Below, piece by piece: positions 3,941-43,179 of a stretch of 46,051 nucleotides of DNA. Origin of the DNA: a virus; the IMG/VR virus record IMGVR_UViG_3300042261_001794, positions 1 through 46,051 of that record. One strand, 5' to 3'. Positions within the stretch are counted from its first letter, which is position 1. The number at the start of each line of letters is the position of its first letter. The notes under the pieces were generated by a model. The model had not been told where the DNA came from. It was given only the letters and a program-made list of their open reading frames with translations, and made no database searches. The position numbers were made by a program, and so were the translations under genes.

Positions 3941-4281
3941 AGATAATTTTATTGGCAGATAACGATGACAAAAGAAGAAATGGTTTAATGCATCACCAAC
4001 CAATTTCACTACAGGAATGTGCCTTTTTTAAATTTCCATATGAAGGAAAACATTCATTTTGGAATAAAAATGTTGATTTTCCAATATCGTTAATTTTTGC
4101 TAATAAAAATATGGAAGTTGAAGATGTCAAGTATTTAGACAAACAACAAAGAGAATCTGTTTCTCCTGATTCTTATAATATTAAATATGTTGTAGAAGCG
4201 CATAAAGATGCTCCAGAATTATATAAAATAAAAAAAGGATCTAAAATAAACATAAAAAACGGTGAGGTTTCATTTAAATGA
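3937..4281 (+). CDS. DUF192 family protein
   Basis: A 114-aa protein matching the DUF192 pattern: an N-terminal RNGLMHH (14-20, the family's RxxGLM), a central FWNKNVDFPISLIF (41-54, equivalent to FWMKNTxxPLDxxF), YVVEA (84-88), and a terminal GSKI near 101-104. DUF192 proteins are small beta-sandwich proteins of unknown biochemical role, common in bacteria, archaea and some large phages. Both ends overlap neighbours by 4 nt (ATGA), so translation is coupled to the winged-helix gene upstream and the nucleotidyltransferase downstream. Confidence 0.72.
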   Translation: MKIILLADNDDKRRNGLMHHQPISLQECAFFKFPYEGKHSFWNKNVDFPISLIFANKNMEVEDVKYLDKQQRESVSPDSYNIKYVVEAHKDAPELYKIKKGSKINIKNGEVSFK

Positions 4282-5327
4282 TTAATATTCCTGAAGAAAT
4301 AAAAAAAGACATACTTTTAATAAATCAAGTATCAAATGATTTAAAAATGAAACTTTATGTGGTTGGCGGATTTCCAAGGGATATGGTGATGGGGGCTCCC
4401 GTAACCAATGAGACTGATCTTGATGTGACAGAAGGAAATGGAAATGCTTTCGATTTAGCTTTTTTTGTTTCCGCCAAATATAATTTACATGAACCGATTG
4501 TTTATGGATCTTCTGGCACCGCAATGGTAAATATGGCTAGTGGCAGAACCGTGGAGTTTCATAACGCCTTTTACAATGCTCCACACATAATTGATCAATT
4601 ATACTTGATGGGGATTGAACCAACATCAATTAATAAAGATATATATTGCCGTGATTTTACAATTAATACATTATTATTTGATATAGAGACTGGTGAAATT
4701 TTAGATTTAACTAAATTAGGAATTCAGGATATAAAAAATAAAATTCTAAGAACACCGTTACCAGCAAAAAAAAGTTTAGAAATAAACCCAAAAATAATAA
4801 TACGTGGAATTAGATTCAAATTGCAATTTGACTTAAAAGAAGAAGAAGAATATGCAAAAGAAGTGATTAATTATATTCCTAATTTAATAGAATGGTTGCA
4901 GCAAAACAAGAATAGTAAATTTGTTAGGAATCATGTAGGAAAGGCATTAGAAATAAATGCAACAAAGGCCGTAGAAGAGTATTCTCGTCTTGGTATTTTG
5001 GAATATTTACCAAGCAATCCAGATATAGATAATGTTATTAAAAATAAAATGTTTGGAACAACAGTTAATCATGAATCATTTGATGGTAATGTAAAAACAG
5101 CACAAACAAAAATGATGCAACATATGATGATGGAAAGAGAAAAACATAAGGCTTATATGCGCAGAAAAAAAAGAGAAGACAAACAAAAGAAAATGGAAAA
5201 ATTTAAAATATTAGACAGGGCAAGAAGTGGTTACTATATAGATAATGCTGAACCAGATTTTGTTAAAAATAGAAAAATAGATAAAAATAGAAAATTATTT
5301 CAATATATAACTGAAAGGAGTTTCTAA
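4278..5327 (+). CDS. Class II tRNA nucleotidyltransferase / poly(A) polymerase-like protein
   Basis: A 349-aa Pol-beta superfamily nucleotidyltransferase. The GGFPRD motif at 30-35 and the metal-binding DLD at 47-49 form the catalytic head. CRDFTIN at 124-130 corresponds to the RRDFTxN nucleotide-recognition motif, and IRGIRFKLQF (175-184) to the RAxRF segment that follows. The family adds CCA or poly(A) to RNA 3' ends. The C-terminal region lacks an HD domain and ends in a very basic helix (about 285-310, Lys/Arg-rich), likely an RNA-binding tail. It lies one small gene upstream of a second, larger nucleotidyltransferase, so the two may divide labour as split CCA-adding enzymes do. That division is inference. 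Confidence 0.82.
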   Translation: MINIPEEIKKDILLINQVSNDLKMKLYVVGGFPRDMVMGAPVTNETDLDVTEGNGNAFDLAFFVSAKYNLHEPIVYGSSGTAMVNMASGRTVEFHNAFYNAPHIIDQLYLMGIEPTSINKDIYCRDFTINTLLFDIETGEILDLTKLGIQDIKNKILRTPLPAKKSLEINPKIIIRGIRFKLQFDLKEEEEYAKEVINYIPNLIEWLQQNKNSKFVRNHVGKALEINATKAVEEYSRLGILEYLPSNPDIDNVIKNKMFGTTVNHESFDGNVKTAQTKMMQHMMMEREKHKAYMRRKKREDKQKKMEKFKILDRARSGYYIDNAEPDFVKNRKIDKNRKLFQYITERSF

Positions 5328-5782
5328 TGGATAAGAATTTTTTAAAAATAAATATTGGAGAAATAGATTACAATGAAGTTAAACCATTAATCTTTAGTAA
5401 TTTTGGTATATTGAAAATGGCTCAAGATCTACAAGAACAATTAATGCCAACTGATAATGTAACAATTAATCCAGAAGAAGCATTGTTGTCAAAAGTTGCT
5501 GAAATAATGGGATATCAGTATTCCGATGATATGAGTAAAAAAACATTGCAAAATCTAAAAGTTTGGTCTGACACATATAGTCCAGAAAATATTCAAGAAG
5601 GAATAAGCACACTCACAAATCTTATTAGGGACATATCATCAATGCCCGAAATGAATGAGACATCAGAAGCCAGAATGAGCATCGAATCTGCAATAAATTC
5701 CTTGCAAAATTTTTCAAACCTGTTTATAACATTTGTTGAGGCAAAAGAGCAAGCTGCTGCTTTTATTTCCCAAAATCAATAA
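5327..5782 (+). CDS. Helical hypothetical protein between two nucleotidyltransferases
   Basis: A 151-aa, mostly helical acidic protein with no recognised family. It contains LKMAQ near residue 30, another instance of the hydrophobic-x-x-A peptide seen at domain borders in this window. It starts on a TAATG overlap with the upstream nucleotidyltransferase and has AAAGGAG ahead of the ATG, so translation is coupled. The SD of the next gene (AAGGA) lies directly after its stop. The position between two tRNA nucleotidyltransferase-like genes suggests a partner or adaptor, but nothing in the sequence demonstrates this. Confidence 0.65.
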   Translation: MDKNFLKINIGEIDYNEVKPLIFSNFGILKMAQDLQEQLMPTDNVTINPEEALLSKVAEIMGYQYSDDMSKKTLQNLKVWSDTYSPENIQEGISTLTNLIRDISSMPEMNETSEARMSIESAINSLQNFSNLFITFVEAKEQAAAFISQNQ

Positions 5783-5792
5783 GGACAGCTTT

Positions 5793-8654
5793 ATGTTTAA
5801 TTATAAAAAAACAGCTATGGAATCAAGTGAAAATATAATTGAAAAACAACTTCCGATTCCATTATCAAATAATCTATTATTTATTTTAAGCGAATTAAAA
5901 AAACAAAATAAAATGGCGCTAATCGTTGGTGGTGCTGTAAGGGATTCTTTGCTTGGAGCCGCATCAAAAGATGTTGATATTGAAGTCTACGGTGTTGATT
6001 ATAATGAATTATTTGAAATCATGAAAAATATCAGTGGCAAATTAGAAAACAACAGGAGTGTTGTTAAAACTCATGTTGATATTGTTGGTAATGCTTTTGG
6101 TGTGTTGAAATTTTATATCGAAAATTTTCATGGACATAAAGAGGATTTTGATTTTTCCATACCCAGAAGAGAAAACAAATCTGGTGGTGGACATAAGGCA
6201 TTTGATATAAAAGTTGATTCAACAATGACGCCAAAGGATGCAGCTTCAAGAAGAGATTTTAGTATCAATGCAATGGCATATGACCCACTTACATATCAAT
6301 TACATGATTATTACGGCGGGTTACAAGATATCGAAAATAAAATTTTAAGAGCAACTAGCTCTGCCTTTGCCGAAGATCCTTTAAGGGTACTTCGCGGGAT
6401 GCAATTTGCTGCTAGATTTGATTTTACACTAGATGAAAAAACAGCAGAAGTGTGTAAAGAAGTTCTTCATGATGTTTATGAAATTAATAATAAAAACATA
6501 ACGATGAAAAAATATGAAGAACTAATACCTATATTTTTAGAAGATGGATCTATAAACCAAAAAGTTCCAGCATTTGTAAAAAACAACATATCCAAGATAG
6601 TTAATGGAAAATTATCAGATATGGAAATAAAATCTTTTATTCAAATATATAACAAAAATCAAGAAAAACTAGAAGATGGAGTTTTAATAAAAGAAATATC
6701 ATTATCCGATAAAACAGTAACATACTTAAAACCATTAATTCCTATGAGCAGAATATCCGAAGAATGGATGAAACTTCTAACAAAAGGGAAATATCCAGGA
6801 AGCCTACTTAAATTTTTAATGGATTCTGGTTGGATTGAAATTTATCCAGAAATCAAAAACATTATTTCTGATTTACCAGGAGAGGAATGGGTTGGAAAGG
6901 GCGTTCCCCAAGACCCAGAATGGCATCCTGAAGGAAATCTTGAAAAGCATATAACTCAAGCTTTAAATAATGCTGCATTAATTGCAGATAGAGAAAAATT
7001 AACAAAAGAAGAAAGGGCTGTTTTAATTTTATCATCATTATGTCATGATTTTGGAAAAGCAATCACTACAAAAAAAGAAATGAAAAATGGAGCAGAACGA
7101 ATTACGTCCAATGGACATGATGTGTCTGGTATTGATTTTACTAAAACCTTTCTCAAAAGGATTGGAGTTACAAAAGAAATTGCTGAACAAATAGTTCCGC
7201 TTGTTCAATATCATATGGTTCATATTGACCAATATAAGGAAAATTCAAAAAACTGGAACGTTCTTCAATTGGCCGAAAAAATAAAACCTGCAAATATAAA
7301 ATTATTGACTATGTTAATCGAAGTAGACCATTCTTCACGTATTGCAGATAATAATTCGGTTTATCCATCTCAAAATACTGGAATTCCGGATAAGGCAAAA
7401 ATAATGATGGACAACGCAATAAAAAATAATGTTTTTTACGAACCATTAAAACCATTTTTACAAAATAAAGCTGGAGAATTATTGCCGCTGATTCATAACC
7501 ATAAACATAATAAATTTTTAGGAACAGTTCAAAATGAAGTCAAACAACAACAATTAATGGGTAATTTGAAAAATGAAACAGAGATTTGGAATTATGCTAA
7601 AACTAAATTAGTAGATTTAATTGTTTCCGACATTATTGATACAAAAACAGATATAATAGATAGATTAAATATTGATCCAAAAACACAGGGACCAATGATT
7701 AGTGAAATAAAAATGAATTTAAAGTTAGCTTATTTAAATGGAGAAATAAAAAACAGAGAGGATTCATTAAAATGGATTGATAAAAACTATAATATAAACA
7801 TAGATATTGAAGCAGGAGAGGAAAATAAAATGTTAAAATTTTCTAAACATAATATGAATTTTGATAAAGAACAACCAGATATAATTGAAATTATATATAA
7901 AGAATTTTGTTCTGATTCTCCAAATTGGAATAAAATTCGTCATTTTTTACAGGACGATGAATTTTTAAAAGAATTAATGAGTTTTTATCATGCGGATAAT
8001 AATTTTGCAAAAGAAACATATGAAGAATTGCTAAATGAATTTCATAATGAAGAAATAGCAGCCCACTCAAACAAGGTTATAAAAAAAGCAGAAGTATTTA
8101 ATCAGGCACCAGTTATCGATCTTAACGATCCCTTTAATGAGTTAAGAAGTTATGTTTCAAGTGATGTTATTGATCGTGCAATTACTTATATCCAGAGGGT
8201 AGAGGGGGATATAATTACTGGTATTGCTCATGTCGGGGTATTGTTTGATAGCGGTAAATTAGGCATGTTTCAAACTCATTACGATAATATGGTTAAAGAA
8301 GAAGTGAGCAAGCAACAAGGTTTAAATCAAAATGATTTAAACAATATAAAAAATGATCGTAAAGGTGTATCTATTTTAGTTAATCCGCAAAGAATAAAAA
8401 TGGAATCAAATAAATTATTAGGACAATCTTATGACGAAGATGACCACAAAGAAGTTTTTGCTATCGTACTGGCAGAAGTGATTTGTCATGAGATTACTCA
8501 TGCCACTGGTGGTAAGAGCAATAACCCGGCAAATGACGAATCTCAACCAGTAAATTTTGAACGAAATTTTTTACACGAGATTATTAAAATTGTAAACAAT
8601 GAAAGATCGCAAATAGGTAAATCACCATTAAATATTGCTGTAAAAAATAATTAA
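5793..8654 (+). CDS. CCA-adding-like nucleotidyltransferase / HD / HExxH fusion protein
   Basis: A 953-aa multidomain protein. The ATG at 5793 is chosen because AAGGA lies 7 nt upstream; an in-frame ATG at 5733 lies inside the previous gene and has no SD. Residues about 25-240 are a class II tRNA nucleotidyltransferase: GGAVRD (46-51), DVD (60-62), RRDFSINAM, and EDPLRVLRGMQFAARF. Residues about 370-480 are an HD phosphohydrolase domain, with H386 and the H418-D419 pair, as in bacterial CCA enzymes that also have phosphatase activity. The C-terminus (about 780-953) has HEITH at 899-903, a zinc-peptidase-like HExxH motif with acidic residues downstream. I know of no CCA enzyme with such a tail. 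Expected action: tRNA 3'-end repair plus a separate peptidase-like activity. An internal SD-ATG at residue 680 could release the C-terminal part alone. Confidence 0.85.
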   Translation: MFNYKKTAMESSENIIEKQLPIPLSNNLLFILSELKKQNKMALIVGGAVRDSLLGAASKDVDIEVYGVDYNELFEIMKNISGKLENNRSVVKTHVDIVGNAFGVLKFYIENFHGHKEDFDFSIPRRENKSGGGHKAFDIKVDSTMTPKDAASRRDFSINAMAYDPLTYQLHDYYGGLQDIENKILRATSSAFAEDPLRVLRGMQFAARFDFTLDEKTAEVCKEVLHDVYEINNKNITMKKYEELIPIFLEDGSINQKVPAFVKNNISKIVNGKLSDMEIKSFIQIYNKNQEKLEDGVLIKEISLSDKTVTYLKPLIPMSRISEEWMKLLTKGKYPGSLLKFLMDSGWIEIYPEIKNIISDLPGEEWVGKGVPQDPEWHPEGNLEKHITQALNNAALIADREKLTKEERAVLILSSLCHDFGKAITTKKEMKNGAERITSNGHDVSGIDFTKTFLKRIGVTKEIAEQIVPLVQYHMVHIDQYKENSKNWNVLQLAEKIKPANIKLLTMLIEVDHSSRIADNNSVYPSQNTGIPDKAKIMMDNAIKNNVFYEPLKPFLQNKAGELLPLIHNHKHNKFLGTVQNEVKQQQLMGNLKNETEIWNYAKTKLVDLIVSDIIDTKTDIIDRLNIDPKTQGPMISEIKMNLKLAYLNGEIKNREDSLKWIDKNYNINIDIEAGEENKMLKFSKHNMNFDKEQPDIIEIIYKEFCSDSPNWNKIRHFLQDDEFLKELMSFYHADNNFAKETYEELLNEFHNEEIAAHSNKVIKKAEVFNQAPVIDLNDPFNELRSYVSSDVIDRAITYIQRVEGDIITGIAHVGVLFDSGKLGMFQTHYDNMVKEEVSKQQGLNQNDLNNIKNDRKGVSILVNPQRIKMESNKLLGQSYDEDDHKEVFAIVLAEVICHEITHATGGKSNNPANDESQPVNFERNFLHEIIKIVNNERSQIGKSPLNIAVKNN
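7814..7832 (+). promoter_or_regulatory. Internal ribosome binding site and in-frame ATG
   Basis: AGGAGAGG at 7814-7821 is followed after 8 nt by an in-frame ATG (residue 680 of the fusion protein). The new N-terminus MLKFSKHN resembles other true starts in this window. Translation here would give a 274-aa product containing the HExxH region. Caution: the Gly-Glu-Glu codons alone produce an SD-like sequence. Confidence 0.4.
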
Positions 8655-14350: not shown

Positions 14351-15160
14351 TTAATATGAATTTCTATATTTTTTTCTTTTATCTACCCATTCACCTATTT
14401 CTTGAATATTAAACCACCATTCTTTTTGTTTATTCATCACATATAAATCAAATATTGAATTATTTAATATTTCTTCTTTACTGGAATTTTTTGATAATTC
14501 CACCAATATGCATAGGAATTCAGACCAACATCTAATTGTTTTTGACGATAACGTTCCTGGGCAATACCTTACTTCAATTCTGTCAATTTTATTTTTTACT
14601 ATTCTTAAATTTATACCCGTTAATTGACGATAATGATTATCATGATCTGTTACGAGTTGCTTGAATCCTTTATTTTTTAAATTTATATCATTTATACATA
14701 TTTCATTAGTTAAAAGTTTTAAATAAGGGCTTTTAGATCTGTTTTTGTTAAACAATGACATTATTAAACACTCATTAACATAAAATATTAAAAATAATTT
14801 TTCAATTTCAGATTTTGTAAAGTCGTTAATAGATATATGAACATGCAAACCACAATCAGAAAAATTAAAAAGATGCTTTCCAACATTCATCATGAAGTTT
14901 TCCATAACAAATGAGACCTTACAAATATCTTCATATGTACATGGAATAGCTGGGGTAGTAATTTCGTATCCACATGAATCAGTTTTTAATGCCCAATCCA
15001 GCTTTGAAGAGGTTTTTTTAAATGAAAAATTTTGATTATTTAATTCTTTTGAAAAAAATGGTGTGAAAAATACATGTGCATCGTCAAGAGTTTCTAATCT
15101 TTTCTTACGATAAAAAAAGTTCTCACTTCCAAACTCGAACTCTATTCCTATTGTACGCAT
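14351..15160 (-). CDS. Putative amidoligase (COOH-NH2 ligase)
   Basis: A 269-aa protein with the amidoligase pattern of a glutamine-synthetase-like ATP-dependent COOH-NH2 ligase. The N-terminal GIEFEF carries acidic metal ligands E7 and E9. DSCGYEITTP (61-70) carries E66. GLHVHIS (104-110) carries H106 and H108. Family members are proposed to form amide bonds on peptides or cell-wall components and occur in phages and conjugative elements. The substrate here is unknown. The start codon and SD lie within a perfect hairpin (separate entry), suggesting translational control. The 3' end abuts the small membrane protein gene on the opposite strand. Confidence 0.8.
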   Translation of the reverse strand: MRTIGIEFEFGSENFFYRKKRLETLDDAHVFFTPFFSKELNNQNFSFKKTSSKLDWALKTDSCGYEITTPAIPCTYEDICKVSFVMENFMMNVGKHLFNFSDCGLHVHISINDFTKSEIEKLFLIFYVNECLIMSLFNKNRSKSPYLKLLTNEICINDINLKNKGFKQLVTDHDNHYRQLTGINLRIVKNKIDRIEVRYCPGTLSSKTIRCWSEFLCILVELSKNSSKEEILNNSIFDLYVMNKQKEWWFNIQEIGEWVDKRKKYRNSY

Positions 15161-27927: not shown

Positions 27928-28815
27928 TTATTTTATCCTTTTTAAATATTGCTGGTATTCTTCATTGTGTTCTCTCCACTTATACGAGTAACAATCAACC
28001 GGACATTTACCAATAACATCATAAAATAAATCAAAGCTTTCTGATGAAATACGGATACAAATACCTTTCTTTTTTCTATTTTTAACAGACTTAATCCCAT
28101 ATAAAGATAATTGATTTATTAAATGTTCAATTTCTTTTTCAGAAAAACAAAATGTAGAAAAATAAACTTGCCATGCTTTATTTTGTTTTCCTTTCTTTGT
28201 TCCAGTGCTAAAAAACCCAGCAGAACCATCACCAATAAACCATTGTCTAATCATTGTTGGTGTTAATATAAGATCTTTTGGAACTATCTTTTTTTGTTCA
28301 CCATTTTCAATAATGTAAAATGATTTATATATATTTAATAAATCAGGATGACACTGAGATCTTAATCTGTAAGATATTAATTGGCTTCCATCTTTTTTTT
28401 CGTATTTATGATTAATTATTGATGTTTCATTCCATTTTAAACAAGGGATACAAGAAGACAGCCATTTTAAATATTTTTCATATTTTGATGAATGTCTATA
28501 ATAAGGCAATCCATTAAATTCTATATTTCGATGATCTATTGTTAAATTTCCATCCCCTAACAATTCGCCTATTATTATTTCTATTTCATGATTTGTTAGA
28601 GATCTTTGTGGTTCTGTTCCGTTATGATGAACCATTAATGCTTCACTTTTAGACCTTAAAGGAATATTATATTTTTTCAAATAGGAAGAAACAGTTTTAT
28701 GTGATTTCATTCCATATAATTCAGCTATTTTATTAGTAGATAATCCATCAATTAAATAAAGCTTATTAAGATCTTCTTTTGTTATATTGTATTTTTGTTC
28801 GTTTTTAGCAGTCAT
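27928..28815 (-). CDS. Free-standing LAGLIDADG homing endonuclease
   Basis: A 295-aa protein. Residues about 10-60 are a helix-turn-helix (LSTNKIAELYGMKSHKTVSSYLKK), probably for extra DNA contact. Two LAGLIDADG motifs follow: IIIGELLGDGNL (about 80-91) and MIRQWFIGDGSA (about 188-199), making a monomeric two-motif enzyme that cuts a long target and promotes its own spread. It sits directly after the capsid-gene terminator and does not interrupt a recognisable gene, so it resembles a SegA/Mob-style intronless homing gene. AGGAG precedes the ATG. Two related endonuclease domains lie in the portal inteins nearby. Confidence 0.85.
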   Translation of the reverse strand: MTAKNEQKYNITKEDLNKLYLIDGLSTNKIAELYGMKSHKTVSSYLKKYNIPLRSKSEALMVHHNGTEPQRSLTNHEIEIIIGELLGDGNLTIDHRNIEFNGLPYYRHSSKYEKYLKWLSSCIPCLKWNETSIINHKYEKKDGSQLISYRLRSQCHPDLLNIYKSFYIIENGEQKKIVPKDLILTPTMIRQWFIGDGSAGFFSTGTKKGKQNKAWQVYFSTFCFSEKEIEHLINQLSLYGIKSVKNRKKKGICIRISSESFDLFYDVIGKCPVDCYSYKWREHNEEYQQYLKRIK

Positions 28816-28954: not shown

Positions 28955-29821
28955 TTAGCTGGTAGCTGTTAAGTTAATTTTGGCCAAAGCGTAGTCATTG
29001 ATGACTACGACTCCCAACTCTTCATAAATTACCCAACCAAGTCTTAAGTTTTTAGGATCATCTGCGGGTAAAACAGTGATGTCTTGACGAACAGGAATTG
29101 CACCAACATATTCAGCAGGAGCAAGTAGGAAAACTTGTCCTTCGGGAACACGATGGGAAACGTGAATGTCGCCTGTCCATAAGTGACCGAATAAACCGGA
29201 CATAAGAACGTCACGACGAGTTGCTTCGTCATAAACATCACGACCAAACAAACGAAGATCGGCATATTGACGTGGATGCATAACGATTTTAGCAACAGTC
29301 AGGTCATGTGATTCAATTGTGCTGAAAGCGTAGTTCAAGGAAGCGATAGACAAGTCACCAGATTGGGTAACAGTCTGATTGGAACGAACTGAAGTGCCGA
29401 TAGCGGCAAGGATTTCAGTATCTTCCAACTTTTGGATAGCTTCTTTTGATTTCATTTGGGCGCGGTCAACAATGTAGAAACGGCGAGCTTTGATTTCGCT
29501 CAAACGGATCTGAGGATTAACTGCGATTTCCCAAGTAGGAACAAGAACTTCTTCGCCTTCAACGATCATGTCAGGCACTGCGCCACGGCGAGCGACAACA
29601 TGAGCAACAGAGGTCACATCCTTCTCATATCTGGCAAGAGCGCCTTGGGGCAACTCATCAACCATAAGAAGTTTTCTACCAATTGCCTGATATTCAAGGG
29701 CGCGTTTGATTGGTTCAACCATTGCTTGGGCAAGGGCAACACGACCTTCAGGTGTTTCAAGAGCTTGAGCAATAATAGCTTCACGCTGCTTGTCATTGTA
29801 GTTAGATTTAATCATTGACAT
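28955..29821 (-). CDS. Major capsid protein (HK97-fold)
   Basis: A 288-aa shell protein. The N-terminal helix (residues 1-50), then VARRGAVPDMIVEGEEV and VPTWEIAVNP (E-loop/P-domain region), the spine-like helix QMKSKEAIQKLEDTEILAAIG, and the C-terminal HPRQYADLRLFGRDVYDEATRR and GWVIYEELGVVVIND stretches fit small HK97-fold capsid proteins of large phages. Codon use is clearly more GC-rich than in surrounding genes, as expected for the most abundant virion protein. AAAGGAG precedes the ATG, and a dedicated terminator follows. Position at the end of the portal-protease-scaffold run supports the call. The exact family is not named because I cannot run a profile search. Confidence 0.82.
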   Translation of the reverse strand: MSMIKSNYNDKQREAIIAQALETPEGRVALAQAMVEPIKRALEYQAIGRKLLMVDELPQGALARYEKDVTSVAHVVARRGAVPDMIVEGEEVLVPTWEIAVNPQIRLSEIKARRFYIVDRAQMKSKEAIQKLEDTEILAAIGTSVRSNQTVTQSGDLSIASLNYAFSTIESHDLTVAKIVMHPRQYADLRLFGRDVYDEATRRDVLMSGLFGHLWTGDIHVSHRVPEGQVFLLAPAEYVGAIPVRQDITVLPADDPKNLRLGWVIYEELGVVVINDYALAKINLTATS

Positions 29822-31881: not shown

Positions 31882-34800
31882 TTATTTCAAGTTATTCAAA
31901 TTAACTTTATACACTTTATCATTCTCTAAATTGGCAACGAAAACAAAGTTTCCATTAACTACGGCTTCAAGCTTACTGGCATCAAGACCTTTGGAATGGG
32001 AAACTCTGCTGATTGCAATTTTGGCAAAATCTTTTTTTGATGCAACAGCATTATTTTTCTTATTACCTGCTGGAGTTGGTTTGATGTAATTTTCTTTAGG
32101 GATTTTCTGAACATAAGTATCAGGATTTCCAGAAGTTTGTTTTACACCAGTTTCTGTGTCAAATTTAGGTTTTTTGCCACCAAGACCATCGCCAGAAGAA
32201 TCTCTTGGAACTACATCTGTATGAAGATTGGTTGCTTCGGGACCAAATCCGTATTCATTTTTTCTGACAGTTTTAGGATTTTTTACATCAGATCTGCCAG
32301 GATTGACTTTTGGATTTGATTTTGATTTATCTCTTGGAACGTTTAATGATTTTTCCTCAGAATTTTTTTCAACTTTATCTTCTTGCAAAGAATAAACCGG
32401 TTCAGTTGGTACTGATTTCATTGATTGTGCTTCTTTGGTTTGTTTTTTGCTTTTTGCAAAAAGTCCATTTTCTGATTTGTCAATTTCTGGAGTATCTTCC
32501 ATATCAATGTCGCTATCAGATTCAAAATCTTCTGATGGATCATCACTTTCAAAATCATCATCACTTTCAAAATCATCATCACTTTCAAAATCATCATCAC
32601 TTTCAAAATCATCACCAGATTCTAAATCAATGTCACCTGATTTAATCTTTACTTCAGCTAACAATTGTTCAAGTTCTTCAGGAGTTACTTCTTCGTTGTT
32701 TTTGATTTTTTCAGCAATATCACTAACAGGGCTTGAATCCTCATTGAATTCACCACCAAAATCTTCAGTAGAATCATCATCATTATCCATCATTGGATCG
32801 TTATCTATCATTGGATCGTCATCCATCATCGAATCATTTTCAGTGTCATCAACATCTTCAACAGTGGATGGAGATTCGGTTTCAGATGCTAAAGGGGCAG
32901 AATAAAGTTCTTGTGCTTTTTTGTTAAAATGTTTTGCAGATGCTTTCTTTTTAACAATTACTTCAACGCCTCTATCAGATCCTTGAATGGCTTCATCTTT
33001 TGCCAATGTACTGCCAGTAGCGTTTTCAGCCTTCATTTTTTTAGCAGTATTTTTATGATCAGAAGTATGAACAGGTTCGCCATCTTCAACTAAACCGACC
33101 TCTTCATTTTTGGGAACATCAGCTTCAGTTGATAAAGGCATATTAACGCCTAAAGCTTGAGCGACTTTAGAGATGTCCAAATTATTTCCACCAACTTTAT
33201 TTGAGCTAGAAACCATATCATGTCTTAAATATTCTGCTTTAGAGGCTTTTTTTGCTTGTGGGCAACAAGATGGATATTCGTCATCTTCATCATCATCAAA
33301 ATCTTCTTCGTCATCTTCATCTTCATCTTCTTTTTCAAATTCTTCAAGACCAGAATGGAACAAGCCCTTTAATGGATTAGCAATTTCTTCTTCGTCTTCA
33401 ACAACTTCTTCCAATCCGTCATCTTCAGTTTGTAAGTCATCATATTCAGAAATTTCTTCTGGAGTACCTTCGATTTCTTCAGAAACTTCAAGTGAATCAT
33501 CTCCACCTTCCATTTGTGAATCGGTTGTTACTTCGATTTCAAATTCTGAACCATCTTTATCCGTGCCCTTAACCAATATTGAATTAATTGTATTTGGTTC
33601 CATACCTAAATCAGTTTCGTTATCATTATCTTCAAATTCAACTTGATCGCCAGAATCTTCAGGCATTTCATCTTCCAATTCAACTATGTCGTCCATTGAT
33701 TCATCTCCTTCGTTTTCCTCATTTGATTCTTCAACGGCTTCTTCATGGATTTCGCCTTCTGAGGATTCATTGTCATTATCCAAATCTTCACCAGTTTCCT
33801 CTTCTTTTTCTTCAACTTCGCCATATGATTCTTCTAAATCATCATCGTCTTCATCAAGAAGTGCTAATTTAAGACCAGCTTTTCTTAATTTTTCAGATTC
33901 AACTTTTAAAGCAAGTTTTCTAATTGAAGAACAAACTTCAACAGCATCTGCATCGGTATAACCATTGCCGATTTGATCACTCATACAGGCCAACATTGGG
34001 TTTTCTTTACGTATAGTAGAAGCAAACTTATTAATGGATTTTCTACTGGAAAGAATTTGATGTAAAGCATCTTTAATTTCATCACAATTATCACATTTAG
34101 CGGTAACAGCATATCCGCCTTTTGAGCCGTTAGGATAAACCTTTTCTTTTTCGGCCAATTCAATATTTGGCAAGAAGGTTAAAGCGACTCTAACTTTATC
34201 ACCATTTGTTTTGGCTTTAACATGAGATTTACAACCACATTCAACGCATATACCGTTGGATTCTTTAAATGCAACTTTAACACCACCGCATTGTGGGCAA
34301 TGTAAACCAACAGGAGCAGGATCACTAATTTTGCAAGAAATACGTTTAGCAGCACCAATAAAATGTAATGGATTAAAATTACCAACCAATCTTAATGGAG
34401 CATTTCTAAGCCAACCATTGCTATGTGCCATTGGCATACCGCCACCCATTGGAGCGCCGCCCATTGGAGCGCCACCAGCAGGAGCACTTGCTCCAACAGG
34501 AGCAGAATTTAATTGATCATTAATTTCAGAACCTTCTGAGCCTTCTTCATTCATTTCTTCATTTTCTTCACCAGATTCTTTGGCAAGACCAACATCAGAA
34601 TGAACTTCAGGATTCAATAAATTCCAATTAATTTCTAATTCATATTCAGATTCACATTCGTTACATTTATATTTACCATTCATTGCATCGACATCTTCGC
34701 CACCGCAAACAGGACAAACAGCACCAAATGGTTTAGCTTCGCCTGATCCAGATGACATGTCATCATCTTCGGTTGGATCTTCTGCCATGGTAGGATCGGC

Positions 34801-37800
34801 ATTCATATTGCCACCACCACCGATGTCTTCAAGACCAGGACCGCCCATTGGTGAACCACCAGCAGGAGCACCACCGCCAGCAGGAGGCATTGTAGTTCCA
34901 GCAGGACTTTGGGCTTGTTTTTTCATATTAGATTTATTGGCAATTTTTTGTAATTTTTCGATAACTTCAGCAGCAAGTTGCATTTCTCCAACCTCGTTTT
35001 CAACTTCATTTCCAACTCCAACAGTATTGTCCATACCTGTTTCCATGGTTTGAACGTTATTTGGATTTTGTGTTTGATCTGCATTTTGATTTTGAGTTGA
35101 CAACCAATTAGTATAATCTTGATCGCTAACAATAACATTTGTAACAAACATGCCGTCTTCATATCTTACGCCGTCTATGCCTTTAGCGCCTTTTACCTGC
35201 GACATTAAATAATCACGCAAGAAACCTTGTTTAAGGGCTTTAGCTACGTCAGTAATTTTAAATTTATCAGCAATTTCAGATGCAGAAATGTTTACGGGAA
35301 TAGATTTAGCAAAACGTTTGCTCCAAGCGGATTTAACATTAGCCGTTTTTCCTTGTTCAACAGTTTCAATATCAACTTTATTATCAGCAATATTTTTCAA
35401 TTCATCAATTTTTTGATCGGCAACACGACCAATTTCATCTGTTAAAATGTCCATATCATCATAAAGCACATCAATTGTTTCTTCGATATAATCATTAGCT
35501 AACTCACTATTAACACCAATTTCGCTAATAATTGCATTTTCAGCAATTGAAGAAACATCGTCTGAAGTTAATTGTGCTTTTTTAACAATACTATTTAATT
35601 TAGCTGATTTAATTTTATTAGCATTAGGTTTAACCGTTGCCAAGGTTTTTGGAGAAATCCTATAAGCAACAACTGCATTAGCCAACCCATTAACAAAAGC
35701 TTCGATAACACGATCAGCAACATTCTTGGAAGAACCTTGTCTATGTCCATCGATTTGTCCTTCTAAAACTTCATCAACAGCTTCACCAAGTCTGTCCTTA
35801 CCGGCAAATTGAACTTCGGTTGTGCCTAATGAACCATCAGCAACATCATTATTCCAACGTTTAAATTGGTAGTCGAATGTTGATAATTGTTGTTCATGAA
35901 CAGGTCTATCGTTTTCAGCAACACCACGTTCAACACCAAATTTAGTAGGACGTGAATCATCTAATTGACTTTCTAAAACTTCACGGTCTTCTTTGACATC
36001 ATCAGAACGCTGATTTCTTGAAAAATCACCCTTTCCAGTTTCAGGTGTCTTAGGAACATTATCCAATTGTCTTTCTGTGGTTACACCAACTTGTCCAGAG
36101 GCTAAACTTTCATCGTTTTTGCGATTAAAATTACCAGACATTTCTTCCAATTGACGTTCCATGACCTTATCTACTGGAGGGGCATTTGTAAGAAGTGCCT
36201 CTTTAACATTTTTTTCATTATTGGCCATCTTTATCTCTCCATTTTCATGATAATTATCAGAAAGCGTCTGTATAATTCTTCCTGCAACAACCTGTGGATC
36301 AATTTTTGCCATTGAGACCAATTCATCACCAAGTTCGTCAGATGTTAAAGACGCTACTTTCTTATTATTTATATACCCTTCAATACCTTTTTTAGGATCA
36401 ATAACAACAGAATATGCTCCATCAGTTACCGTTATTGGTTCATTATTTACAATTTGCTCATCAAGCATTTGTGCAAATTTTTCACTAATTATTGAAGATG
36501 CTGATTTTCTAGCTTTATCTCTTCCACTAATAGGCATATCTATCACTCCCTCATTATTTTTAATTTTATTAATTTCATCTACTAAATTGCTTATTTCTGA
36601 AGCAATAGTGTTTAATTCCTTTATATTTATACCAAATTTATTAATATTGTTTGAATTATTTGATGCAACAGGCATTTGTTGTGGTGTTTGTTGTGGTGTT
36701 TGTTGTGGATTTTGTTTTAATAATTCATCCGTAGTTTGTCCACCAGTTGGTATTTGATTCATTTCGCCTTTGACCCCTTCTCCTTCATCAGGAGCATTTA
36801 GACCATTCTCACCAGTTCCATTGCCGTCATTAGCAAAGCCAGCTTCAACTAGCGAAATAATTAAATTTTGTAATTCTGATAACAATCCACCTATATCTTC
36901 TAAAAATTCAAAATCAACGTCTTTTGAAGCAAGAATTTGATTAGCAACTTCTTTTAACATATCCAAAGCCTTATTGAGTTTATCAATATCTTCGCCTCTG
37001 GCTTGTTTGTTTAAAGTTGCATTTTTTCTCATTGTAACTAATTCTTGATGACGACTAGCAACAACGGTTTTAACCTTTTCTCTCAATTCTGATAGTAATT
37101 CTGGACCAGTTTTAACATTTTGAATTGTGCAATTTTCACAAGCACCATCTGTTACAGCCGAAAGTTCAATAAATTTAATACCAAAATTTTTCTCATAAAC
37201 TTTTTGGCCTTGAACAGTTTTGCCTTTAAAATTTTTAATATGTTGGCAATAATCATCTTCACCAATAGCTTTATTTTTGCAAACAGAACATTCCGAAAAT
37301 TTAACACTACAACCCATGGACACATCAGAAATATATCCCTGTTTAATTCCTCTTGCCAATTGAGGATATGCTTTAGCATCAACCATTGCATCAACATAAG
37401 CACAATGGTTATCTAAATCATAAAAGGCATTTACGATTCTTCCTCTTGATTGTTCGATATCATCATTTTTATGATTTGTGAATATCGAGCAACCAATAAA
37501 AGTTTCAAATGCCTTTTTACCATTATCATCTTCTGCTAAAAGTTGTTCTTCTGAAAAATAATCGCCATTGTCATTTGCGCCATAATATAATTCGCCAGTC
37601 TTATCCGATCCACCGGCATCAATTGCTCTTGCACGAAAAATAACCCAATCATTAGGATCTTTATCTTCAAGTTCAGCAACCAAGTTAATAGAATTATTAG
37701 CATGAATTAAGTTGTTACTTATGTCATGCTTGATATATGATGCTTGTCTGGGACCAAATAATAAAATATCCCTATCAATAATTGAGGCTTTTTTTAAAAT

Positions 37801-37821
37801 TATAGCTTTTTTGATTAACAT
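31882..37821 (-). CDS. Prohead protease - scaffold fusion protein (1979 aa)
   Basis: Residues about 50-240 are a prohead serine protease of the gp21/HK97 type: H117 in FTNHKND, SRGRI (125-129), and nucleophile S168 in DVSMG, with C178/C181 and C192/H194 forming an inserted zinc site. The remainder is scaffold-like: Gln/Pro repeats (373-384), six spaced ExQ[L/I/F] motifs (555-690), Gly/Pro/Met-rich linkers, zinc ribbons near 1034 and 1174, and a long Asp/Glu-rich tract (about 1325-1770) with tandem DDFES. A C-terminal module is shared with the 425-aa neighbour. It would form the procapsid core and then mature it by proteolysis. AAAGGGG precedes the ATG. In-frame SD-ATG sites at residues 429 and 532 could give separate scaffold products, as in lambda C/Nu3. 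Such a long fusion is exceptional. Confidence 0.82.
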   Translation of the reverse strand: MLIKKAIILKKASIIDRDILLFGPRQASYIKHDISNNLIHANNSINLVAELEDKDPNDWVIFRARAIDAGGSDKTGELYYGANDNGDYFSEEQLLAEDDNGKKAFETFIGCSIFTNHKNDDIEQSRGRIVNAFYDLDNHCAYVDAMVDAKAYPQLARGIKQGYISDVSMGCSVKFSECSVCKNKAIGEDDYCQHIKNFKGKTVQGQKVYEKNFGIKFIELSAVTDGACENCTIQNVKTGPELLSELREKVKTVVASRHQELVTMRKNATLNKQARGEDIDKLNKALDMLKEVANQILASKDVDFEFLEDIGGLLSELQNLIISLVEAGFANDGNGTGENGLNAPDEGEGVKGEMNQIPTGGQTTDELLKQNPQQTPQQTPQQMPVASNNSNNINKFGINIKELNTIASEISNLVDEINKIKNNEGVIDMPISGRDKARKSASSIISEKFAQMLDEQIVNNEPITVTDGAYSVVIDPKKGIEGYINNKKVASLTSDELGDELVSMAKIDPQVVAGRIIQTLSDNYHENGEIKMANNEKNVKEALLTNAPPVDKVMERQLEEMSGNFNRKNDESLASGQVGVTTERQLDNVPKTPETGKGDFSRNQRSDDVKEDREVLESQLDDSRPTKFGVERGVAENDRPVHEQQLSTFDYQFKRWNNDVADGSLGTTEVQFAGKDRLGEAVDEVLEGQIDGHRQGSSKNVADRVIEAFVNGLANAVVAYRISPKTLATVKPNANKIKSAKLNSIVKKAQLTSDDVSSIAENAIISEIGVNSELANDYIEETIDVLYDDMDILTDEIGRVADQKIDELKNIADNKVDIETVEQGKTANVKSAWSKRFAKSIPVNISASEIADKFKITDVAKALKQGFLRDYLMSQVKGAKGIDGVRYEDGMFVTNVIVSDQDYTNWLSTQNQNADQTQNPNNVQTMETGMDNTVGVGNEVENEVGEMQLAAEVIEKLQKIANKSNMKKQAQSPAGTTMPPAGGGAPAGGSPMGGPGLEDIGGGGNMNADPTMAEDPTEDDDMSSGSGEAKPFGAVCPVCGGEDVDAMNGKYKCNECESEYELEINWNLLNPEVHSDVGLAKESGEENEEMNEEGSEGSEINDQLNSAPVGASAPAGGAPMGGAPMGGGMPMAHSNGWLRNAPLRLVGNFNPLHFIGAAKRISCKISDPAPVGLHCPQCGGVKVAFKESNGICVECGCKSHVKAKTNGDKVRVALTFLPNIELAEKEKVYPNGSKGGYAVTAKCDNCDEIKDALHQILSSRKSINKFASTIRKENPMLACMSDQIGNGYTDADAVEVCSSIRKLALKVESEKLRKAGLKLALLDEDDDDLEESYGEVEEKEEETGEDLDNDNESSEGEIHEEAVEESNEENEGDESMDDIVELEDEMPEDSGDQVEFEDNDNETDLGMEPNTINSILVKGTDKDGSEFEIEVTTDSQMEGGDDSLEVSEEIEGTPEEISEYDDLQTEDDGLEEVVEDEEEIANPLKGLFHSGLEEFEKEDEDEDDEEDFDDDEDDEYPSCCPQAKKASKAEYLRHDMVSSSNKVGGNNLDISKVAQALGVNMPLSTEADVPKNEEVGLVEDGEPVHTSDHKNTAKKMKAENATGSTLAKDEAIQGSDRGVEVIVKKKASAKHFNKKAQELYSAPLASETESPSTVEDVDDTENDSMMDDDPMIDNDPMMDNDDDSTEDFGGEFNEDSSPVSDIAEKIKNNEEVTPEELEQLLAEVKIKSGDIDLESGDDFESDDDFESDDDFESDDDFESDDPSEDFESDSDIDMEDTPEIDKSENGLFAKSKKQTKEAQSMKSVPTEPVYSLQEDKVEKNSEEKSLNVPRDKSKSNPKVNPGRSDVKNPKTVRKNEYGFGPEATNLHTDVVPRDSSGDGLGGKKPKFDTETGVKQTSGNPDTYVQKIPKENYIKPTPAGNKKNNAVASKKDFAKIAISRVSHSKGLDASKLEAVVNGNFVFVANLENDKVYKVNLNNLK
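32541..32612 (-). repeat. 18-bp tandem repeat coding DDFES-type units
   Basis: Four perfect head-to-tail 18-bp copies (plus strand CATCACTTTCAAAATCAT) encode an acidic DDDFES-type repeat at residues about 1737-1760 of the protease-scaffold fusion. Copy number may vary between strains. Confidence 0.85.
36226..36240 (-). promoter_or_regulatory. Internal SD and in-frame ATG (residue 532)
   Basis: On the minus strand GGAGAG is followed after 6 nt by ATG (MANNEKNVKEALL). This would start a product immediately before the six ExQL motifs. Confidence 0.45.
36535..36552 (-). promoter_or_regulatory. Internal SD and in-frame ATG (residue 429)
   Basis: GAGGGAG is followed after 8 nt by ATG (MPISGRDKARKSASS). 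A product starting here would lack the protease domain, as lambda Nu3 lacks the C protease. Confidence 0.45.
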
Positions 37822-38069: not shown

Positions 38070-38432
38070 TTAATATGTTGCATATTTTCTATATATCCAT
38101 ATTTCAGGATTACCTAAAGTAACTTTTGTTCTTACGAAATTATAAAAGCTTTGGTCTTTAAAAAGACCAGCACCTGTAATTGAACCTAATTTCGCCCAAA
38201 TAATTCCATTGGGAGAAACTTCTACATCAATATTTCCTTCAGAAGTAAAAATACTAAAAGCTTCAACTTTCCCAATACATATTGGTCTGCTATAAACTGA
38301 TTCATCGCCAACAGTTCTTAATTTAATTTCTGGTGAAGTATTATTGACAATCAATTGACGATTTTTTTTGAATTGACTAGGGGCTGTTACGGGATTAAAA
38401 TCACCCATGGGACTTGTTACATTATATGGCAT
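38070..38432 (-). CDS. Beta-rich structural-like protein
   Basis: A 120-aa protein with mostly beta-strand character (IDVEVSPNGIIWAKLGSITG, FVRTKVTLGNPEIWIYRK). It contains no catalytic motif. Such patterns occur in small phage fiber, decoration or head-associated proteins. GGAGAGG precedes the ATG. It is positioned right after the portal in transcription order. Confidence 0.62.
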   Translation of the reverse strand: MPYNVTSPMGDFNPVTAPSQFKKNRQLIVNNTSPEIKLRTVGDESVYSRPICIGKVEAFSIFTSEGNIDVEVSPNGIIWAKLGSITGAGLFKDQSFYNFVRTKVTLGNPEIWIYRKYATY

Positions 38433-38454: not shown

Positions 38455-41400
38455 TTACTTATCTAATAAATTAAATAATTCCTCTTTTTGATTAATTAGA
38501 TTTTCATAATCTTCATCATTATTATCAAAATCTTCTAAAACAATTTCATCAATCATAATTTCAGCAGTTTTTATATTATCCGTACTGGCTATTGTTTTCA
38601 TTTTTGGAACTTTGTTCGCTTTTTCTAAGTCTTTTGCTGTTTCAATAATTGTTGCAACAACATCCTCCAATGAGTATTTTATTTCGTCTTCAGTAAATCT
38701 TAAAACAGTCCAACCTAAACTTCTTAACCTATCATCTCTATTTTTATCTTTAGCCATATCTTCATCAGAGGAATGCCACTGTTTACCATCTGCCTCAACA
38801 ATTAATTTAATTGTTGGAAAGAAACCATCAACAACAACTCTTGGCATATGTTCTGGCTCTGGTTTTTGTTGCCATACAAAATCCATAGGGAGATTATTTG
38901 TTTTTTGTGCTTCCTCTATTTTTAAATATAATTTCATTTCTAATTCAGTTAACCTAATAGCCCCATCTCTAGGTCCATAATATAAACCATCTTCTGGAGA
39001 AACCTGTTTTGGTGTTTCTATCTTTGGAGATTTTGGTTCGTTTAATTTGTATTTATTTGGTCTATGAACATTTGGGGCAATATTTTTTGCTTGATTATAG
39101 TTTTTTAATTGCGATTCATATGACGCCATAGATGGTCCGCCAGACGGTGCTGCTGATCCACCAGCAGGACTAGGCATTCCGCCGCTCATTGAAGGAGCAA
39201 GTCCATCCCCAGGTAAACCGGGAGCGCCACCACCACCAGGTGTTTTGCCCATGCCACCACCTTTACCGCCACCGAAACCACCGCCTAAACCACCGCCTAA
39301 ACCACCACCGCCACCAAATGGTTTGTCTGAACCATCTGATGGAGCGATACCATTTTGTTGCTGATAACCAGTTTCAAGACGAACTCTTTCAGTTTCAACA
39401 TCATAATTAATACCAAGCTTTTCAAGTATAAATTGACTGGAAACAAGTCTTTTTTCCCACAATTGCATATATAATTGGTTTTTTTGTGATTCGTCTCTCA
39501 AGTTCAAATCAGACCATGTGATTTCTGGATAATCTAATATTTGATTTCCCTTTAGGTCTTTTTTATAAAAACCTCTCATTTGCGCTTCTAATCGATATAC
39601 TTTTTCAGTAATCCATTCAGCCAGCATATTTTGAACTGTAGATAATCTTTTAATAGTTGCTTCAATACCAATTGCAGCTTGTGAGTAGGACGGTCCTTCG
39701 CCCGAAAGCAACGCCTCATTAACTCCTAAACCTTTAATCAAAGCTTTGTCAATTAATTCATATTCTTTGGTTAACTGAAGTACTTTGCCCGAATTACCAT
39801 GAATTCCTAATTTACCATTTAATCTAACAATAAATATATGATTAGGAACTTCAAAACACCATACTTTTCCCTTGTAATCAATTTTTTTTCTATTTCTATT
39901 TATTTGTAAATCATTTCCATTTTTTTCTTTAGAATTATCTGACCAAAGAATTCTATAAATATCATTATGTTTATCATTTTTTCTTAATTCTTTAGATATT
40001 GTAGGGAAATAACCTAATTTAAATAAAATTTCTTGAATATCATCAGCTAATTGTTTGGAAGTTGTTGAATATCTATTATTTGCAACTTTATTCTTTGTGT
40101 ATTTTATATCCCGATCACCCATCATTAAACTTCTCAACAATGTTTCAAGATATTTTTTTGGAAGATTTTTCATCCAAATAGGTATTTTTTTATCTGCACA
40201 AACAAAACCAAAATTTGATGCAACAAATCTTCCAAATTCAGAATTATCAATAATAAAATTAATATTGGTATTTTTCCTTTTTTTATCTCTTCTATCATCA
40301 ATTTTTATTCTATAATTATTAAAAAGGTTATTCATAACGTCTTCTAAATGTTTATAATATTTACTATTTAAATTTTGAGATATAGAAATTCCAGTTATTG
40401 ATTTTAATTCTTTTCCATTGCTTCTTTGTGTTTCTCCTTCACTTAAATACCAACCAATAAAAGATAGCCATAATTTTAAATTTTTATCTTTTAAAATTGA
40501 TATTGACTCAAAATCAAATGAATCAGGAATATCTCCTTCAAAATTAATAGTATTTAAAAACTTAAATTTATTAGTTTTATTAATATTTTTAGATTCAATT
40601 AAATTATAATTATTTCCATAAATATATTTGTTTTCAAACGGACTCCACTCCCCTGTGTCTGAAAACATTTTATGATTATTCGTAACTTCAATATCTACAA
40701 ATTTCGATTTATATTTATGGATTGAACCATATGTTTTATAATCATAATCATATTCAAATTTATTAATATATTTATGATATTCCATATTTTTTGTTTCTTG
40801 ATTATATGTTGCGATTAAATCATCTTCAGTTACATCGTAATATTTTAAAAAACCTCTATGAGTTAAAACCTCAACATTTTCGGTATAGCATGACCCTACC
40901 CATTGAAAATCAAAATTATTATGAGTAACCAATGTTAAATTTGGATCGTTAGCGGTCATTGCTAATTGCCTTTGAGTATCAGCAATGTCTTCTGGCCCAG
41001 CCGGTTTTAAATCACTACCAATTTTACAGATTTTTATTGGTAAAATATGCCTATCGGCAACAATCCATTGTGCTTGACGTAACTTATCCTGATATGCTAA
41101 TGTTGGAAATAATGGAGCAATAATTGAACGACCATAAGCATTATAAGGAATTTCATCATGCTTCATATGTGTAATTGTACGGTTGCTTAATGGAATTGGT
41201 TTTTGCGAAAGAATTAATTTTTTCATATGATCCGGTATTTTATTATATAATTCGACCGGTTTTTTAGACCAAACAATTTGTTTCATTTCATCATCAGGAA
41301 TAAATGATATAATTGGTTCTGAAGGGTTTAATTTATTTACTTGAACATCAATCCAATCTGGATTCATGATAGAAATATTACCAATTTGTCCACCTTCATG

Positions 41401-43179
41401 ATTACAAACATTACCATCTGACATTATTCCAAAACCATGACATTTTGGACATTGGATGGATATCATAACAAAGGCATCACCTAATGCAAAATATTCATAT
41501 GCAATTAATGGAAGATGATATTCTAATCTTAATCTTTTCTTTAGTTTATCAAAATGTTCTTTACGATGTGCATGATTAATCACATTTTCAAATCCATGAA
41601 ATGGGAATTGTGCATAAAATCTTAATGATGAAGCAATTGTAGGATCATTCTGTGCAAAAAATCTACAATTACTTACTTTAAAACCAGAGCAAACATAACT
41701 TCTCTCAGGGTCTATTTGGATATCATAACCTATTCCATTATATAAATATTCTGTTATTTCACAAATTTGCTGTGCGAAATATTTATTTCCATCTTCATCT
41801 TTAGTAAAAAATTTCAAAACTCTATCGCCATTAGATTCATAATTGAAATTTTCATCAATTTTGCTAGATCTCATGTAAGGTTTTAATTTATATACTTCGC
41901 TTGCAGGAACAAATATTCTATAAATCCATTCTGAACTATGTTTATATGTTTTCTCTTGATCAGTATCTACATAATCATTATAATGAGGATATTTATTTAA
42001 ACTACAATTAATACCACACATTAAAAGCATGAAATAAAGTTGATCAGCCATATCTTTAGATACATTATTTGCAATTAGTTTGGACTGACCATTAAAAGAA
42101 CCGTCTCCATCAAAATAACCACCAAGAATATGAAGCATTTGTTCTTTTGTGAGGTGTAATATTTCTTTTGTGAATTTTTTATTATCTAGTTTTCCTTTTA
42201 TGAAAATTGAGAATTCATCATAAGATCTTTTATCTTCAGAATAAATTCTTCTGCAATTTACACTATTTGAATGTTCTTTATTTTTACATGAGGAATATCT
42301 TTGATTAAGAATATTTTCTATATTTGTAATTATATTTGGTCTATCAGTTCCACAATTATAATGGATATAACCAAAATTACCATGTTCGCATAAAGTTCCA
42401 TCGGCAATTTCTAATCCAACAGCCCACATAAAATCGTTATCAAAATCAACATATTTTGATTCTAAAAATTTAGGAACAGGTGTGAGAAGAAAGTCTTTTA
42501 ATTCAACCTCTTCTGCTTTGATTCTTTCAATTTTCCACTTACTATTATTGATGAATTCTTTTTTACCAGTGTTTCCACGCGATCCTTCTCTATAAAGTTT
42601 TTGTTCATATTTTTTAACAGTATCTTTAAGTTTTTTACCTTTAATAACATAAACATTATGTTCTTCAGAAACAGAAAGATCATTGTAATAACCAAATGTT
42701 TTTAATTTAATAAATCTTTTATCGCTACACTCTCTTTCGAAATAATTAATAGGTTTACGTAATTCTCCAACCCCACCATGTATATTGCTTGAAATGATGT
42801 TTTCATAAACAATTCCATTTGTTAAAGTGTCCTGAGTAATTGCTGTTGGCGTAAATTTAAATTCGGAAATTGGAACATAAGTCAAATCCTCTTGCAACAT
42901 AAGTCCTTTAGAATCAATTAGCCACATGTAAACTTCTCTTCGTTTAGTGGGAATTTGCCAATTAACAGGTGTGTGTATAGGGTTATAAAATCCAGCAGAA
43001 GTATAAGCAATTGAATTTGCCGATCCAAACACAGACGAAGAGGCATAATTAGCAAATTTTAATTTTGGTGAATTATTATTACTATTTTTTTTAACTAAAA
43101 TTGATTCATTTATTATATCTTCTGCTGATCTGCCATCTTTTGTAAAGCTATTACCAGCCATTTTAAACACATAAGTCAT
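38455..43179 (-). CDS. Portal protein with two inteins and a C-terminal nuclease-like domain
   Basis: A 1574-aa precursor. Portal segments are residues 1-86, 505-763 and 1130-about 1280: RREVYMW joining CRFFAQNDPTIASSLRFYAQFP, EYFALGDAF, a zinc site (C577, C580, C592, H594), NPDWIDV, and GLGVNEALLSGEG. Two inteins (87-504 and 764-1129) each carry a LAGLIDADG endonuclease. After splicing the protein would be about 790 aa. A Gly/Pro-rich linker (about 1288-1350) leads to a Vsr/DUF559-like PD-(D/E)XK domain: D1451, E1462, D1464-G, W1468-H1469, then RDDRLRSLGWTVLRF (1481-1495). The portal forms the DNA-entry ring; the nuclease tail is unexpected. AGGAG precedes the ATG. Confidence 0.85.
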   Translation of the reverse strand: MTYVFKMAGNSFTKDGRSAEDIINESILVKKNSNNNSPKLKFANYASSSVFGSANSIAYTSAGFYNPIHTPVNWQIPTKRREVYMWLIDSKGLMLQEDLTYVPISEFKFTPTAITQDTLTNGIVYENIISSNIHGGVGELRKPINYFERECSDKRFIKLKTFGYYNDLSVSEEHNVYVIKGKKLKDTVKKYEQKLYREGSRGNTGKKEFINNSKWKIERIKAEEVELKDFLLTPVPKFLESKYVDFDNDFMWAVGLEIADGTLCEHGNFGYIHYNCGTDRPNIITNIENILNQRYSSCKNKEHSNSVNCRRIYSEDKRSYDEFSIFIKGKLDNKKFTKEILHLTKEQMLHILGGYFDGDGSFNGQSKLIANNVSKDMADQLYFMLLMCGINCSLNKYPHYNDYVDTDQEKTYKHSSEWIYRIFVPASEVYKLKPYMRSSKIDENFNYESNGDRVLKFFTKDEDGNKYFAQQICEITEYLYNGIGYDIQIDPERSYVCSGFKVSNCRFFAQNDPTIASSLRFYAQFPFHGFENVINHAHRKEHFDKLKKRLRLEYHLPLIAYEYFALGDAFVMISIQCPKCHGFGIMSDGNVCNHEGGQIGNISIMNPDWIDVQVNKLNPSEPIISFIPDDEMKQIVWSKKPVELYNKIPDHMKKLILSQKPIPLSNRTITHMKHDEIPYNAYGRSIIAPLFPTLAYQDKLRQAQWIVADRHILPIKICKIGSDLKPAGPEDIADTQRQLAMTANDPNLTLVTHNNFDFQWVGSCYTENVEVLTHRGFLKYYDVTEDDLIATYNQETKNMEYHKYINKFEYDYDYKTYGSIHKYKSKFVDIEVTNNHKMFSDTGEWSPFENKYIYGNNYNLIESKNINKTNKFKFLNTINFEGDIPDSFDFESISILKDKNLKLWLSFIGWYLSEGETQRSNGKELKSITGISISQNLNSKYYKHLEDVMNNLFNNYRIKIDDRRDKKRKNTNINFIIDNSEFGRFVASNFGFVCADKKIPIWMKNLPKKYLETLLRSLMMGDRDIKYTKNKVANNRYSTTSKQLADDIQEILFKLGYFPTISKELRKNDKHNDIYRILWSDNSKEKNGNDLQINRNRKKIDYKGKVWCFEVPNHIFIVRLNGKLGIHGNSGKVLQLTKEYELIDKALIKGLGVNEALLSGEGPSYSQAAIGIEATIKRLSTVQNMLAEWITEKVYRLEAQMRGFYKKDLKGNQILDYPEITWSDLNLRDESQKNQLYMQLWEKRLVSSQFILEKLGINYDVETERVRLETGYQQQNGIAPSDGSDKPFGGGGGLGGGLGGGFGGGKGGGMGKTPGGGGAPGLPGDGLAPSMSGGMPSPAGGSAAPSGGPSMASYESQLKNYNQAKNIAPNVHRPNKYKLNEPKSPKIETPKQVSPEDGLYYGPRDGAIRLTELEMKLYLKIEEAQKTNNLPMDFVWQQKPEPEHMPRVVVDGFFPTIKLIVEADGKQWHSSDEDMAKDKNRDDRLRSLGWTVLRFTEDEIKYSLEDVVATIIETAKDLEKANKVPKMKTIASTDNIKTAEIMIDEIVLEDFDNNDEDYENLINQKEELFNLLDK
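39793..40890 (-). mobile_element. Portal intein 2 (class 1 type, LAGLIDADG)
   Basis: 366 aa, C764 to N1129. Cys1 begins CYTENVEVLTHRGF (block A), block B is VDIEVTNNHKMF, and the LAGLIDADG motifs lie at LSFIGWYLSEGE (905-916) and LETLLRSLMMGD (1011-1022). Block F/G has VWCFEVPNHIF and ends GIHGN with Ser+1. The C-terminal His is displaced one residue (HGN rather than HN). Exteins QWVGS and SGKVLQLTKEYE join cleanly. Confidence 0.85.
41668..42921 (-). mobile_element. Portal intein 1 with non-canonical ends (LAGLIDADG)
   Basis: 418 aa, L87 to N504, with Cys+1 at C505. Block A-like sequence is GLMLQEDLTYVPISEF, block B is LSVSEEHNVYV, and the endonuclease motifs are VGLEIADGT (254-262) and ILGGYFDGDGS (351-361). 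Block F is YDIQIDPERSYV and the end is GFKVSN. Residue 1 is Leu and the penultimate residue is Ser instead of His, so splicing would need a class 2-like direct attack by Cys+1, or may be impaired. Confidence 0.78.

Follow-up and report, generated by a model that had tools for sequence, protein, structure and literature searches.

A predicted DUF559-type nuclease domain fused to the portal protein in a clade of uncultivated huge phages

Portals are among the most conserved machines of tailed viruses and are treated as channels and sensors. In phage T4 the resolvase gp49 (endonuclease VII) is bound to the portal gp20 and releases stalled branched DNA, and C-terminal GFP fusions to the T4 portal keep prohead function (PMC9958956). 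The gp4-like head nuclease, which has a restriction endonuclease (REase) fold, is required for packaging (PMC7824862). In the P22 portal, the C-terminal residues form a barrel extending inside the virion (PMC5290284), and the portal of Bacillus phage G (gp14) ends in a short Gly/Pro-rich tail without a nuclease. DUF559 proteins (PF04480), such as NGO0050 (PDB 3hrl), are usually free-standing or fused to helicases and other enzymes, as seen for phage helicases. In the open-access literature searched, no description of a portal-DUF559 fusion, or of a fusion of a portal to Vsr or another nuclease, was found; both parts are known families, whereas the architecture described here and its fixation throughout a clade appear to be new.

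Organization of the portal gene and its nuclease domain

The window analyzed is a 46,051-nucleotide IMG/VR virus contig (IMGVR_UViG_3300042261_001794), and its features are collected in the table. The initial annotation had claimed a portal protein carrying a C-terminal PD-(D/E)XK (Vsr/DUF559-like) nuclease at 38455-38960, which covers residues 1408-1574; translation of the ORF gives D1451, E1462, D1464, H1469 and GWTVLRF at 1489 exactly as it numbered them, and both the portal and nuclease identities are supported by profile, structure and phylogeny. One correction is needed, as the catalytic Lys two residues after the second acidic residue of a canonical PD-(D/E)XK motif is absent (E-A-D-G here), so the domain belongs to the Vsr/EDxHD branch of that fold. 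Comparison with L001, a relative which lacks inteins at these two sites, defines the intein boundaries, and the spliced protein of 790 aa is a portal, with the match to the phage G portal extending over 440 aa. The gene sits in a head block with a head-maturation-protease-like gene and the major head gene.

Features of the 46,051-nucleotide window
Coordinates	Strand	Residues	Feature	Supporting observations
38455..43179	-	1-1574	Portal ORF, 1574 aa, with two inteins and C-terminal nuclease domain	phrog_16240 portal, E 4.9e-28; phage G portal, 34.7% identity, E 2e-71
41668..42921	-	87-504	Intein 1	Boundaries from L001; LAGLIDADG_3 hits in the ORF; begins with Leu rather than Cys/Ser
39793..40890	-	764-1129	Intein 2	Boundaries from L001; LAGLIDADG_3 at 1015-1079
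39130..39339	-	about 1281-1350	Gly/Pro-rich linker	
38620..38958	-	about 1408-1520	DUF559 / Vsr-EDxHD-type nuclease domain (predicted)	Conserved E1414, D1451, E1462, D1464, H1469, D1478, R1481, D1482, GW1489-1490, R1494
38458..38619	-	1521-1574	C-terminal tail, acidic towards its end	
38070-38432	-		Small 120-aa ORF between the portal and the protease-like gene	Counterpart in L001 (8850-9269) sharing the C-terminus YRKYATY
31882..37821	-		Downstream 1979-aa gene with head-maturation-protease-like N-terminus followed by about 1700 aa; possibly a protease-scaffold fusion	phrog_18299, E 5.3e-15
28955..29821	-		Major head protein	phrog_2522, E 1.1e-64
27928-28815	-		LAGLIDADG endonuclease ORF directly beside the major head gene	
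14351-15160	-		Amidoligase_2-like gene	
4278-5327 and 5733-8654	+		Two neighbouring poly(A)-polymerase-head/CCA-adding-like genes, the second with an HD domain	

Entering the ORF into a Pfam search places the domain well above the curated cut-off for PF04480 (E = 2.3e-12; 47.2 bits against 20.6), and the L001 version scores 34.2 bits. An AlphaFold model built from three sequences already matched 3hrl and I-Bth0305I in Foldseek; a model built from 49 sequences (mean pLDDT 85) matches 3hrl (DUF559-type protein, E = 4.7e-5), I-Bth0305I (E = 1.4e-4), PvuRts1I, AbaSI and, more weakly, E. coli Vsr (PDB entries 3hrl, 3r3p, 4oq2, 4par and 1vsr). A profile search of PDB sequences is in agreement (3hrl E = 1.9e-10, 3r3p E = 7.8e-7).

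The unusual first residue of intein 1 is not restricted to this contig; several relatives at the same portal site begin with Val, Gln, Leu, Met or Lys, with Cys at +1 wherever it could be read, suggesting an intein subfamily without the usual N-terminal nucleophile.

Distribution and conservation across the clade

A single-sequence scan with the portal core found nothing and alignments were needed; portal-only profiles were used to scan IMG/VR so that the sampling does not depend on the nuclease, with a smaller number of loci coming from a nuclease-based scan. Among 84 distinct portal cores of this clade, 79 lie in closed ORFs and 78 of these carry the nuclease; the remaining one is a frame-broken contig with the nuclease in a later ORF, and the others end at contig ends. 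Contigs of the clade reach 548, 494, 476 and 371 kb. None of the 17 outgroup portals in the tree (phage G and Bxz1 types) carries the domain; outgroup portals without it include the phage G type, the Bxz1 type (Pleione), Myrna, RedWattleHog and Phrappuccino, and Tunturi_5 and PhiXhv-12 also lack it. In a maximum-likelihood tree of 100 portal cores, presence needs one change, with 100/100 support. A DUF559 search of whole records found the domain in all 12 clade genomes examined and in none of three phage G-type genomes (phage G and two other large G-like phages). Two scans of GTDB genomes found no relatives.

In the 78 distinct domains, ten columns are invariant (D1451, E1462, G1465, H1469, D1478, R1481, D1482, G1489, W1490 and R1494), E1414 and Q1437 are found in 77/78, and D1464 in 75/78, with E in 2 and C in 1. 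Close pairs have a nuclease dN/dS of about 0.02-0.15 where dS is measurable, as some dS values are saturated, which is of the same order as the portal core. In seven members an intein of 365-387 aa interrupts the active site exactly between E and C of E-C-D-G (E|C...N|C-D-G), and splicing would restore the motif; as inteins tend to occupy the most constrained sites of essential genes, this is independent support that the site matters. The fusion, the fold, the single origin, the near-perfect conservation of the active site and the strong purifying selection are nearly certain on computational grounds.

The mycobacteriophage and Gordonia phage portals of the same superfamily have a Gly/Pro-rich region followed by a different conserved C-terminal module of about 60-100 aa of unknown function. 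Phage G-type portals already end in a Gly/Pro-rich tail without the nuclease; the simplest history is that a nuclease was added once to a pre-existing flexible tail in the ancestor of this clade and has been kept ever since.

Possible roles of the tethered nuclease

The preferred reading, with a probability of roughly 0.45, is that each portal ring (about 12 subunits) displays about twelve nucleases, predicted to be metal-dependent, on flexible Gly-rich tethers at the head-side exit of the DNA channel, where they nick or cut selected DNA as it is packaged: branched, nicked or otherwise aberrant DNA, or ends that need trimming. The location is inferred from the P22 portal and from the tolerance of the T4 portal to C-terminal GFP. 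Phage G TerL used in BLAST and Pfam Terminase_6N/6C did not find TerL in the clade; however, phrog_2 did in four of eight clade genomes, and in these four phages TerL keeps nuclease motifs I-III, so the portal nuclease is an additional activity. Cleavage would have to be selective or regulated, otherwise it would destroy the packaged genome. This reading remains tentative, as no biochemical activity or substrate is known for the domain, the maturation protease might remove it before packaging, and phage G-type and Bxz1-type phages package DNA without it. The three functions proposed in the initial annotation, namely trimming of packaged DNA, resolution of branched DNA during packaging, and attack on host or rival DNA on entry, remain unproven, and the expected lumenal position constrains all three. 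If the C-terminus lies inside the head, the nuclease cannot easily reach branches that stall outside at the motor, which argues against simple debranching and leaves room for release-and-ejection or modification-sensing models. RuvC coexists with it in one clade member and endonuclease VII in another, so it is not the only candidate resolvase in those phages; absence of these enzymes in the other records is weak evidence because they may be incomplete.

Of the alternatives, the least unlikely is an ejected effector, in which the head-maturation protease frees the nuclease from its tether inside the head and it enters the host with the DNA to attack host, plasmid or rival-phage DNA. The likely head-lumen location, the protease-like gene in the same block and the long flexible linker would allow this, and the internal proteins of T4 may serve as a precedent; however, no cleavage site was identified, and the nuclease is never replaced by another effector type in 78 members and its active site does not diversify, unlike typical effector repertoires. 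It is less likely still that the domain is a packaging gatekeeper that recognises missing or foreign base modification and cuts host or rival DNA entering the head, so that only the phage's own modified DNA is kept. This would explain how a lumenal nuclease could spare the phage genome, and the fold relatives PvuRts1I and AbaSI are modification-dependent restriction enzymes, but the similarity to these enzymes is at superfamily level only and their modified-base-reading domain is absent. A further reading, in which the tethered nucleases inspect DNA at the head side of the packaging channel and cut whatever lacks the phage's own structure or modification, as a built-in quality-control or restriction device, is not excluded, though it is improbable on present evidence.

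A structural or DNA-clamp module that no longer cuts and only binds DNA, scaffold or terminase is also doubtful; the different C-terminal module of mycobacteriophage and Gordonia phage portals offers a parallel, but the acidic and histidine active-site residues are invariant over large divergence, whereas loss of catalysis usually erodes them. The remaining two possibilities are very unlikely and were rejected. That the domain is a homing endonuclease stranded at the end of the portal gene is suggested by the close fold relative I-Bth0305I and by the richness of these portal genes in inteins, but one origin, vertical inheritance and no empty sites are seen within the clade, no intein or intron borders surround the domain, and the linker is part of the portal frame. 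Replacement of the terminase nuclease would fit the conservation of the domain and the correct place for a headful cut, but the motif I, II and III carboxylates are kept in TerL of the four clade phages in which it was found.

Comparison with described systems

A clade-wide portal with an apparently intact nuclease active site, on contigs up to 548 kb, suggests that these huge phages need, or have gained, an extra DNA-processing step at the portal, and gives a clean genetic marker for an uncultivated huge-phage clade. The portal core is homologous to that of phage G and related jumbo-phage portals and shares the Gly/Pro-rich C-terminal region, but the phage G tail is short and no DUF559 was found anywhere in the phage G genome. 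With DUF559 proteins such as NGO0050 the domain shares the profile match, the fold and the D...ExDG signature, yet here it is fused to a portal. With the EDxHD homing endonuclease I-Bth0305I and E. coli Vsr it shares the fold and the E/D/H/D active-site layout, but it is neither a homing gene nor a repair enzyme here, being a fixed part of a structural protein. The arrangement would work like T4 gp49 on gp20, a DNA nuclease acting at the portal during packaging, although gp49 is a separate protein, apparently of unrelated fold, that is not covalently fused; the old T4 observation of a portal-bound resolvase thereby becomes testable in a form where nuclease and portal cannot separate. The T4 gp4-like head completion nuclease is likewise a REase-fold nuclease of the head, but is TnsA-like and free-standing, not part of the portal.
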